Made by a program: the position numbers and the translations under genes. Source: Psychrobacter sp. NG25 (GTDB taxonomy: Bacteria; Pseudomonadota; Gammaproteobacteria; Pseudomonadales; Moraxellaceae). Taken from it: a DNA stretch of 64,000 bases. Location of the stretch: positions 310,001-374,000 of the forward strand of contig NZ_JADGMV010000002.1 in assembly GCF_015234355.1 (NCBI RefSeq), given 5' to 3'. Below the pieces are notes generated by a model. The model was not told the origin of the DNA. It saw nothing but the letters and a program-made list of their open reading frames with translations, and did not search any database. Within the stretch, counting starts at the first letter, position 1, and every line of letters begins with the position of its first letter. Below, piece after piece: positions 22,933 to 28,574 of this stretch.

Positions 22933-23610
22933 CTATTCATCTTGGCTTATATTACCAACTTGCCATTCATCAAACCTTGTCTTATATCCTTCTGGCTTAC
23001 ACAGGCTCAGCTCCCAACATGTTTCTCCGCGCGCTAGATACTTCACTTCAAAATGTGTACGCTGGCTATCCGTCGCTACTGTATATCGAGTGTTTGGTAA
23101 GCACCATACCTTGGTTGCCTGCTTCTCTGCATTATCCATATATGCTTCTATATTGGTTACGAGAACTACCTCGCCACCTATCTGCAAACGTGACAATAGA
23201 AACTCAAAAAATGGCATATTTAACCACTGTTGATTAGGATTATGCTGTTCAGGATTGGGATAAAGAATAAAGATTTTTGCCAAACTGCTTGGCTTGATGG
23301 CATGCACTGTCCATGCAATGGCGTCAGCATGGATCGCATCTAGGTTCGGTGAAGATTGTATTGCTGCCAGTTTGGCAAACGCTTCGAATTTGTTGCGTGT
23401 ACGCTCAATTGCTATCAAATGCTTATCAGAATTCTGTAATGCAAAACCAAGCGCATGCTTGCCCTTCCCGGCACCAATCTCTAATAACAAAGGCAGATTG
23501 TTTTCGTTTTCACCAATGATACTTGGCAAGATAAAGTCACGCGGTGCTGAGAGTCTCTGTGGTTGAAATGCACGCTCTTGTTGATGCGTAAGCTCGATAT
23601 TGTCAGTCAT
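22933..23610 (-). CDS. TrmB-like SAM-dependent methyltransferase with degenerate catalytic motif
   Basis: The 225-residue protein lines up with tRNA (guanine-46-N7) methyltransferase TrmB along its whole length: SAM site LLLEIGAGKGKHALGFA (about 40-56), acidic ribose-binding residue in LIAIERTRNK, DAIHADAI, and a C-terminal THFEVKYLARGE that matches the family's TxFExRG segment. However, the diagnostic PDPWxKxRHxKRR of TrmB is here YPNPEQHNPNQQW: the catalytic Asp is Asn and all the tRNA-contacting Arg and Lys are gone. It is therefore probably a paralogue with another substrate, or inactive on tRNA. The start at 23610 has AAGGA seven bases upstream. It diverges from yacG across a 191-bp gap. 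A canonical TrmB gene would be expected elsewhere in the genome. Confidence 0.75.
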   Translation of the reverse strand: MTDNIELTHQQERAFQPQRLSAPRDFILPSIIGENENNLPLLLEIGAGKGKHALGFALQNSDKHLIAIERTRNKFEAFAKLAAIQSSPNLDAIHADAIAWTVHAIKPSSLAKIFILYPNPEQHNPNQQWLNMPFFEFLLSRLQIGGEVVLVTNIEAYMDNAEKQATKVWCLPNTRYTVATDSQRTHFEVKYLARGETCWELSLCKPEGYKTRFDEWQVGNISQDE

Positions 23611-23801
23611 TTACTATCCTTAAAGTATTTGTCTTTTGCCATTATTCGGCTGCATGCTATTATATAGTCAATCCACTGCAATAGTAATATGACGACAGCT
23701 AGCAATGCTAAAACCGTCTATTAATCATCACGTAGGCGAACCTACTGACTGTCATTCACTATTAATAATTCAAATAAATCGAGGATGCTTTCACTCTTAT
23801 T

Positions 23802-23993
23802 ATGACTGACCCTACCCCCAACACACCACCCAAGACCTATCCGTGCCCACGCTGCGGCACCCAAACAGCATGGCAGGATAATAAATATAAGCCGTTTTGC
23901 AGTAGTCAATGCAAACTTATTGACTTAGGTTCATGGGCAAATGAAGACTACACTTTGCCTGCGGAAACCACGCCTTTCTCCGACGAGCTATAA
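23802..23993 (+). CDS. yacG: DNA gyrase inhibitor / zinc-ribbon protein YacG
   Basis: The 63-residue protein is a full-length YacG. A zinc site is formed by CPRC (Cys15, Cys18) and FCSSQC (Cys33, Cys37), and the signature [14 protein letters not shown] follows at once. E. coli YacG binds GyrB and blocks DNA binding by gyrase. The acidic C-terminal tail is usual. It is 47 bp upstream of argD on the same strand and may share its transcript; in many bacteria yacG lies near coaE, which is not the case here. Confidence 0.92.
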
Positions 23994-26600: not shown

Positions 26601-28505
26601 TTAATACAAATGTACTTTACCCATCCTTCCTTCACCACGCTCAGTTAAGTATTGCATCACTGGAGTATTTAGCAATTTTGACTCTGCTACTGCCTTAGCT
26701 TGTACTAGGCGTTTTTGTTGACGACGTTCAGGCGTCTTATCTTCAGCATGCATGACACTGCCATCAATTTTTAAGTCAATCTCCGCTTGGATAAACTGCT
26801 GTTGCAATTTAGCTGCTAACTGCTGAAAGGTCGTTTGTAAATGTCGACTGTCCACACTGGTCACAAAGACTGCCTTACCATCACATAAACCTGTCATCAT
26901 ACCTTGACGAGCAAGCGCTAACTCATCTTGGGCCAAGACATCTGCCTCACGAGCCGTTTGCAACCAATAGTCCCATTTCTCTGGATTCCACTCACCCATT
27001 AGCTCTTGTGGTGGGCAACGTAGCAAAGTACGTGGGTCATCAACTTGCGAGGTTAACTGAGAATTATTTACGTCAGGCTCAACGACTGGTTCAGGCTCAA
27101 CGACTGGTTCAGGCTCAACGACTGGTTCAGGCTCAACGACTGGTTCAGGCTCAACGACTGGTTCAGGCTCAACGACTGGTTCAGGCTCAACGACTGGTTC
27201 AGGCTCAACGACTGGTTCAGGCATGGCACTAGTCACTGACTGTGCTATATTTTCATCATAACTAGCGGTTTGCAGTTTATCATAACTTTGCGCTTGATAA
27301 TCCACATCATATGACTGTAAAGGCGGTGCTGAAGCTTCATGGGTGACAGCACCTGTAGGTTGCGTAGAAGACACCTCACTGTCATAAGTGTTGCTCAATA
27401 CTTCATCAACTGGCAACGGGCGAAAGGCCAGTAAACGCAAAATACACATCTCAAGCGCTTGCATAGGTGTGCTAGCAAGTTTCACACCTTCACGTGCTTG
27501 TACCACGATTTCATAGTAAAGTTGCAACACGTCTGGGCTGATATGCTGCGCCAGTACAGTGATATTCTGTGCCTGAGCTTCATTCACATTGAGCGCGACT
27601 TCAGGTAATAACTGTGTCAACGCCAATTGATGAAGTAGCTCAGCTAACCCATCAAACATACTGGTGGCATCAACCATCTGTGCACGCATTTGCTCGATAT
27701 GAGCAGCAACAGCAGATTTATCATGGTTATAAATATCTGTAATCAAACTGACCAAATCAGCGGCATCAATCAGACCAAGCATCGCATTAACGGTAACGTC
27801 GTCGAGCGCCCCTTGACCAAAAGCGATCGCCTGATCGGTCAACGACAACGCATCACGTACTGAGCCTTTAGCCGCACTTGCCAACTGCCAAAGGGCGGGC
27901 TGCGTATAGGCTACTTGCTCTTGGGTAAGAACATTCGCCAAGTGTTCGCTCAGCAATGTCTGTGGTAGTGGGCGCAGCACAAACTGTAAACAGCGCGAGA
28001 TAATAGTGATTGGCAGTTTTTGTGGGTCCGTCGTCGCTAGCAAAAACTTTACATGCTCAGGTGGCTCTTCTAGTGTTTTGAGCAGCGCATTAAAACTGTG
28101 CGTAGACAGCATATGCACTTCATCAATGAGATAAACCTTGTAACGACCTTGACTTGGCGCATAAGGAACATTGTCTAGTAGCTCGCGTGTGTCTTCAACC
28201 TTAGTACGAGACGCGGCATCAATTTCGATCAGATCAATAAACCGTCCTTGATCAATGGCCACGCAATTATCGCACACACCGCAAGGAGTACTAGTGATAC
28301 CTATATCACAATTCAAACACTTGGACAAAATACGCGCAATCGTCGTCTTACCCACACCGCGCGTCCCAGTAAAGAGATACGCATGATGCAGGCGATTATA
28401 ATCAATCGCATTAATCAGCGCTTGCGAGACGTGTGTTTGCCCAATTAACTCGTGAAAGTTTTTGGGACGATATTTGCGAGCTAAAACTTGATATTGCTGC
28501 GTCAT
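26601..28505 (-). CDS. dnaX: DNA polymerase III subunits tau/gamma
   Basis: The 634-residue clamp-loader ATPase loads the sliding clamp and couples the replisome. It starts MTQQYQVLARKYRPKNFHEL, the family's N-terminus (28505; an upstream ATG at 28517 adds four residues of no family match). Walker A is GTRGVGKTTIARILSK, followed by the zinc site with four cysteines (CLNCDIG, CGVCDNC), the DEVHMLS Walker B, and the sensor SRCLQF. After the ATPase and collar region (to about residue 370) is a linker with eight perfect copies of EPVVEP, then a C-terminal tau domain that should bind the polymerase. No A-AAA-AAG slippery site with following hairpin was seen, so separate gamma may not be made by the E. 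coli frameshift route. It is not followed by the usual ybaB-recR. Confidence 0.94.
   Translation of the reverse strand: MTQQYQVLARKYRPKNFHELIGQTHVSQALINAIDYNRLHHAYLFTGTRGVGKTTIARILSKCLNCDIGITSTPCGVCDNCVAIDQGRFIDLIEIDAASRTKVEDTRELLDNVPYAPSQGRYKVYLIDEVHMLSTHSFNALLKTLEEPPEHVKFLLATTDPQKLPITIISRCLQFVLRPLPQTLLSEHLANVLTQEQVAYTQPALWQLASAAKGSVRDALSLTDQAIAFGQGALDDVTVNAMLGLIDAADLVSLITDIYNHDKSAVAAHIEQMRAQMVDATSMFDGLAELLHQLALTQLLPEVALNVNEAQAQNITVLAQHISPDVLQLYYEIVVQAREGVKLASTPMQALEMCILRLLAFRPLPVDEVLSNTYDSEVSSTQPTGAVTHEASAPPLQSYDVDYQAQSYDKLQTASYDENIAQSVTSAMPEPVVEPEPVVEPEPVVEPEPVVEPEPVVEPEPVVEPEPVVEPEPVVEPDVNNSQLTSQVDDPRTLLRCPPQELMGEWNPEKWDYWLQTAREADVLAQDELALARQGMMTGLCDGKAVFVTSVDSRHLQTTFQQLAAKLQQQFIQAEIDLKIDGSVMHAEDKTPERRQQKRLVQAKAVAESKLLNTPVMQYLTERGEGRMGKVHLY
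27076..27219 (-). repeat. 18-bp perfect tandem repeat, eight copies, inside dnaX
   Basis: The unit GGCTCAACGACTGGTTCA (as read on the plus strand) is repeated eight times without a single change, 144 bp in all. Translated with dnaX it encodes EPVVEP eight times, an acidic, proline-rich spacer between the ATPase region and the tau tail. Unit length is a multiple of three, so changes in copy number keep the frame. The lack of any substitution points to recent expansion by slippage or recombination. Confidence 0.97.
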
Positions 28506-28574
28506 AGTAAATGCCAATGTAAATAATACAAATATAGATAAAGTGTCAAACCAGTGAGCTATATTAGGTTTAGA

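Follow-up and report, generated by a model that had tools for sequence, protein, structure and literature searches.

A TrmB-derived methyltransferase paralogue with a probably altered substrate in Psychrobacter and other Moraxellaceae

Within the stretch of Psychrobacter sp. NG25 DNA analyzed here (64,000 nucleotides in full, hereafter the window), an open reading frame on the minus strand (22933-23610) encodes a 225-residue paralogue of TrmB that retains the fold and the SAM-site residues of this enzyme family and has replaced residues needed for TrmB catalysis. We conclude that this TrmB derivative is probably an active SAM-dependent methyltransferase whose substrate has changed; the substrate is probably RNA, and m7G46 would no longer be its product. 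The frame begins with ATG, contains no internal stop and is preceded by an AAGGA ribosome binding site 6 nt ahead of the ATG, in agreement with the initial annotation, which had described an intact frame with a good ribosome binding site. The dN/dS ratio is 0.084 against the nearest congener (dS 0.11) and 0.041, 0.049 and 0.086 against three more distant ones, two of which are rough values with dS near saturation (2.9 and 2.4); for three further pairs saturation precluded a ratio. Judged from these ratios, which are well below 1, the protein is maintained by purifying selection. A pseudogene or decaying gene is ruled out by the intact frame, the low dN/dS and the invariant residues described below.

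The assignment to the TrmB family, which the initial annotation had made from the letters of the DNA, is borne out by both profile and structure comparisons. The window protein matches PF02390 with 65.9 bits against a curated cut-off of 24 (4e-18), and its predicted fold over residues 25-207 is that of TrmB and METTL1. The AlphaFold model, for which the input was the window protein and 27 relatives from the paralogue groups B and C (defined below) and none from its own family A, has a mean pLDDT of 87.1 and a pTM of 0.85. Its best structural match is B. subtilis TrmB (Z 21.3, rmsd 2.1 over 181 residues), and all of ranks 1-23 are TrmB-type, METTL1 or Trm8 structures (Z 21.3-16.0), including 1yzh, which is titled hypothetical methyltransferase. 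Nevertheless, identity to solved TrmBs is only 17-21%, and the score against the NCBIfam TrmB equivalog TIGR00091 is 49.5 bits, well short of the cut-off of 112.65. The TrmB-type structures are followed by 16S rRNA or antibiotic-related methyltransferases with Z values of at most 15.6; the next best fold is that of the KamB/NpmA 16S rRNA (adenine1408-N1)-methyltransferases (KamB, 3mq2, Z 15.2 over 173 residues), although identity to these is 11-15% and the NpmA profile PF24675 yields 14.8 bits against a required 60 (E 0.017).

To place the active-site residues, 145 distinct sequences were aligned, comprising 46 from the family of the window gene (family A), 18 and 63 from two unnamed TrmB paralogue groups defined in this analysis (B and C, respectively), 17 canonical TrmBs and one truncated family row that was left uncounted. 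SAM-binding motif I is retained in the window protein as EIGAGKG (residues 44-50; codons at 23461-23481, minus strand, counted from the ORF start), as is RTHFEV (residues 184-189; 23044-23061, minus strand), in which T185, F187 and E188 are equivalent to T217, F219 and E220 of E. coli TrmB. The T..FE..Y block to which these residues belong is present in A, B and C. At the T217 position Thr is found in canonical TrmB, in A (46 of 46) and in B, while C has 50 Thr and 13 Ser, so that Thr or Ser occupies it in 127 of 127 sequences from the three groups; Glu occupies the E220 position in all four groups (46 of 46 in A and 127 of 127 in A, B and C together). Among 19 aligned family members (46-82% identical to the window protein), E44, I45, G46, A47, G48, G50, E69, D96, T185, F187, E188, K190 and Y191 are invariant in all 19. 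The invariance of the SAM-site residues and of T217 and E220 argues for a working enzyme.

In contrast, the catalytic signature of TrmB is gone. Residues 118-129 of the window protein (codons at 23224-23259, minus strand, counted from the ORF start at 23610) read PNPEQHNPNQQW where canonical TrmB has PDPWxKxRHxKRR, a position at which the canonical TrmB of the same genome reads PDPWQKKRHHKRR. N119 thereby stands in place of the Asp at E. coli D144, and NPNQQW in place of the basic KxRHxKRR patch. The initial annotation had correctly pointed out the loss of this motif, with its catalytic Asp and basic run; it did not mention a second Asp to Asn change, at the D180 position (N153; codon at 23152-23154, minus strand). 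Both changes are fixed. The D144 position is Asp in 17/17 canonical TrmBs and Asn in 46/46 members of A, in 63/63 of C and in 16 of the 18 sequences of B, the other two having Cys; the D180 position is Asp in 17/17 canonical TrmBs and Asn throughout A (46/46), B (18/18) and C (63/63). H151 is likewise replaced, by Asn in 46/46 members of A. The R154 position (Arg in 17/17 canonical TrmBs) is Gln in 46/46 of A, mixed in B and Arg in 58/63 of C, and the R155 position (again Arg in 17/17) holds Gln in 32 members of A and Arg in the other 14, and Arg in 16/18 of B and 63/63 of C. Thus both acid-to-amide changes are common to the three groups, whereas loss of the basic run is confined to A. Family A carries PNPE without the Lys/Arg run; in B and C, PxPK is retained, as is, in most sequences, the Arg at R155. 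In addition, N119, P120, E121, N124 and Q127 are invariant in the same 19 family members, which goes beyond chance. Family A was collected by whole-protein search and is free of pattern bias at D144 and D180; the B and C loci (L074-L153) were found partly with patterns that fix [NC] at D144 or N at D180, so that the coupling of the two positions in these groups is partly built in.

Published work on TrmB bears on the replaced positions. In the portion of the E. coli TrmB study available to us, Ala at R26, D144, H151, R154, R155, D180, T217 or E220 leaves less than 10% of activity; D144A binds tRNA well and methylates it more than 150-fold more slowly under single-turnover conditions, and R26A, R155A and T217A impair tRNA binding (PMC10130221). 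According to the same portion, D180 and T179 are proposed to hold N1-H and O6 of G46, and the D144 equivalent of B. subtilis TrmB bonds N6 of the SAM adenosine (PMC10130221). Given these roles, both the proposed G46-reading residue and a tRNA-contacting Arg are changed in the paralogue, which retains T217 and E220.

The window gene is a paralogue rather than the TrmB of its genome, since a canonical trmB lies elsewhere, on contig 25 (61539-62045; 166.7 bits to PF02390). The initial annotation had suggested looking for such a gene and had named its absence as evidence against its reading. The six PF02390 matches in this genome at E up to 1 were the contig 25 TrmB, the window gene and four weak matches below cut-off. 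Among 149 sampled genomes of the Moraxellaceae, the family of the window gene is present in 114, including 37 of 41 from the genus; the raw count at E up to 1e-5 was 119, from which five weak matches (5.8e-10 to 9.6e-6) were removed as canonical TrmBs with PDPW. Of the 114 carriers, 112 have at least two PF02390 matches with the best at canonical strength, canonical status being assigned by score, and the remaining two (G037 and G100) are drafts with a listed completeness of 95% and 88%. A role as stand-in for a missing TrmB is therefore ruled out. A stand-in for a missing RsmG or RlmK is also unsupported, as one RsmG-family protein is present together with one PF10672 protein whose length of 773 aa suggests RlmKL. 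Since 35 of the 149 genomes, four of them among the 41 from the genus, do not carry the gene, it is dispensable. Beyond the Moraxellaceae, 1 of 293 genomes in the order sample matched at E up to 1e-12, through a group C type protein (of 11 matches in all, ten fall within the family), and the 16 of 369 genomes in the class sample that matched the family profile at E up to 1e-18 represent the window gene itself, three B, one C and eleven canonical TrmBs. In viral contigs 65 stretches matched a pattern and none was confirmed. The named matches in a plasmid collection were four Acinetobacter baumannii records (55% identity), three of them chromosome-sized; an orthologue is present in 4/4 of these records and is annotated, where annotated, as SAM-dependent methyltransferase.

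Fixation of the D144, D180 and basic-patch changes while canonical TrmB is kept argues that the product is not m7G46 and that another target is methylated. We envisage a class-I SAM-dependent methyltransferase that is competent for catalysis. By sequence and model, the protein folds like TrmB and METTL1 and keeps the SAM-site residues. In the alignment, D180, the proposed reader of the Watson-Crick edge of G46, and D144 of PDPW have turned to Asn and KxRHxKRR to NPNQQW, with these changes fixed under purifying selection. The enzyme would then form no m7G46; the methyl group would instead go to a different target, most likely an RNA base in rRNA or in a subset of tRNAs, and a conserved N-terminal arm (RxF...PRxF) may serve to reach it. 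The initial annotation had offered methylation of another substrate as one option, and this direction holds as the best reading. Its account, drawn from one gene, is incomplete: the change is fixed across a whole family of genes (114 of 149 sampled genomes), and the Asp-to-Asn pair is shared with B and C.

The A. baumannii orthologue connects the family to genetic data. Strain ARC6851 has nine putative tRNA methyltransferases, among them trmZ2 (OB946_16835), which has no known target according to the available part of the report and for which Phyre2 predicts a guanine-N7 or 2'-O-methyltransferase (PMC10653896, mBio 2023). Matching by PF02390 score and by position indicates that trmZ2 is probably the orthologue of the window gene, OB946_16835 being known to us by its locus tag. 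One A. baumannii record has three PF02390 matches, namely trmB with 176.2 bits, the orthologue with 64.4 and a third, approximately 100 kb from trmB, with 24.6 (cut-off 24). Locus tags, which advance in steps of five, place trmZ2 852 genes past trmB; in NZ_CP077849 the orthologue lies 909 kb from trmB, and the interval from trmA to trmB measures 408 kb there, against 417 genes. In both remaining full-size records, which are rearranged, trmB lies 1.7-2.4 Mb from the orthologue and its spacing does not fit. The spacing between the orthologue and trmD is stable in 3/3 records (782, 799 and 811 kb) and fits that between trmZ2 and trmD (N minus 3047 genes) if the genome is assumed to hold approximately 3,800 genes. 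For a comparison with the window protein, TrmZ2 itself offers only its name and a fold-recognition prediction.

These data bear on the alternative that the paralogue is an auxiliary TrmB, which still makes m7G, though only in a few tRNAs or at a site in rRNA. TrmB is its closest relative in both fold and sequence, T217 and E220 are retained, and the published D144A enzyme is slow and not dead at high enzyme concentration (PMC10130221, as far as the available part extends). We nevertheless consider an auxiliary TrmB unlikely. The equivalents of D144, D180, H151 and R154 are replaced in 46/46 family members, and canonical TrmB coexists with the paralogue in 112 of the 114 carriers. Moreover, among the A. 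baumannii mutants covered by the available part of the report, m7G fell below detection in ΔtrmB alone, in an assay that digests total RNA (PMC10653896). Although the orthologue is present in A. baumannii, canonical TrmB accounts for all m7G detected there. An A. baumannii record also contains RsmG- and RlmKL-type genes, whose products, if active, should leave m7G in rRNA, and the lack of m7G in total RNA of ΔtrmB despite these genes makes the assay appear blind to low levels, so that a rare site would be missed; the result thus excludes a major m7G activity of the paralogue and leaves room for a minor one (PMC10653896, with the same limit on its coverage).

We also weighed a target other than RNA, either a small molecule or a protein, within the reach of class-I methyltransferases, which act on many substrates with this same fold. 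The basic patch is lost in A and the window protein is acidic, with a net charge of -5; the mean net charge is +0.7 in A compared with +2.9 in canonical TrmB and +6.3 in B. The acidity of the protein and the low mean of its family speak against strong RNA binding. However, the position of KamB, which modifies A1408 of 16S rRNA, among the nearest structures after TrmB and METTL1 indicates that a TrmB-like fold can shift to rRNA at another site, and no metabolic partner is conserved beside the gene in the loci examined. On balance we regard a non-RNA target as quite improbable. A pseudoenzyme or regulator, that is, a SAM sensor or a binding partner of TrmB, is very improbable: catalytic residues of TrmB are lost, yacG stands divergently beside the gene with a possible shared regulatory region, and deletion of trmZ2, the probable orthologue, has no stress phenotype in the available part of the report (PMC10653896), but a pseudoenzyme would have no need of invariant SAM-site residues and T217/E220, and B and C combine this Asn pair with basic residues, which makes it look like a working variant. 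The initial annotation's suggestion of a regulatory paralogue, for which the divergent yacG is the sole indication, accordingly loses ground to an active methyltransferase. The same part of the report states that mutants other than ΔtrmB showed wild-type behaviour in 5 mM H2O2 and that MIC changes of more than 2-fold were few (PMC10653896).

The initial annotation had recommended a phylogenetic tree. With canonical TrmB as the outgroup, A and C each form one clade (both 100/99) and A and B share a branch (99/93), within which A is nested among B rows with weak support (80/42). This tree used 17 of 46 A, 17 of 18 B and 28 of 63 C sequences drawn at random and 17 of 17 canonical ones, the window sequence being absent, and the program warned of long branches between C and canonical TrmB. 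In a quicker tree that included the window sequence, the protein falls inside A (19 rows, SH-aLRT 99). Going by the titles of their records, 11 of the 18 B rows come from Bdellovibrionota, most of them metagenome assemblies, and a Piscirickettsiaceae bacterium and a filamentous cyanobacterium are among the rest; this scattered distribution of group B (L074-L090) suggests horizontal transfer. Group C (L091-L153), a set of TrmB paralogues with LYPNP[WY]PK and RSNW/RTNW signatures in many Gamma- and Betaproteobacteria, lacks an MPF block, and the profiles used assigned it no function. The neighbours of the B and C loci showed no common theme, and a literature search for TrmB-like paralogues found nothing on family A among the papers listed.

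A broader scenario, which we put forward tentatively, is that the TrmB family has a single ancient branch, made up of A, B and C, in which replacement of D144 and D180 by amides changed base specificity. The branch might then perform an undescribed RNA modification, for example of adenine or of another guanine atom, in Moraxellaceae, Bdellovibrionota and many Gamma- and Betaproteobacteria, and the Moraxellaceae might later have dropped the tRNA-type basic patch for a new RNA target. The finding matters because a relative of RNA methyltransferases is conserved in most sampled members of a bacterial family that includes A. baumannii, and because it belongs to a paralogue set that generic annotation labels SAM-dependent methyltransferase. 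If RNA is the substrate, a methylated position is missing from current knowledge of these bacteria, and the question is directly testable since the deletion mutant, that of A. baumannii trmZ2, probably exists already.

Family A has a conserved divergent neighbour. In the window, the methyltransferase gene shares an intergenic region (23611-23801), which holds the AAGGA, with a divergent gene for a YacG-like zinc-finger protein (23802-23993, plus strand) whose A. baumannii homologue is annotated as DNA gyrase inhibitor YacG. A divergent yacG is found in 42 of 47 A loci and lies less than 500 bp away in 41 of 47, as measured between open frames; in the remaining five it was not found in approximately 2.9 kb upstream. 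The A. baumannii orthologue has an 11-bp overlap with the gene for a TIGR03862 flavoprotein (L154:4998-6825). The 16 neighbourhoods compared, 15 loci and that of the window, include five in which such a flavoprotein adjoins the gene and a sixth in which it is approximately 2.3 kb distant. A functional pair of methyltransferase and flavoprotein is thus possible in part of the family, but a partnership of this kind is not general, since a profile search of the Psychrobacter genome itself gave no TIGR03862 match. The A. baumannii flavoprotein also scores above the cut-off for TIGR00275, the family to which the rRNA dihydrouridine synthase RdsA, which makes D2449, presumably belongs. A literature search combining YhiN with dihydrouridine returned no match.

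Elsewhere in the window, a perfect 18-bp tandem repeat (27073-27222; 8.3 copies, 100% matches) encodes EPVVEP units. It sits inside a minus-strand open reading frame (26601-28517), the start of which we take to resemble DnaX, the tau subunit of DNA polymerase III, and its copy number is likely variable.
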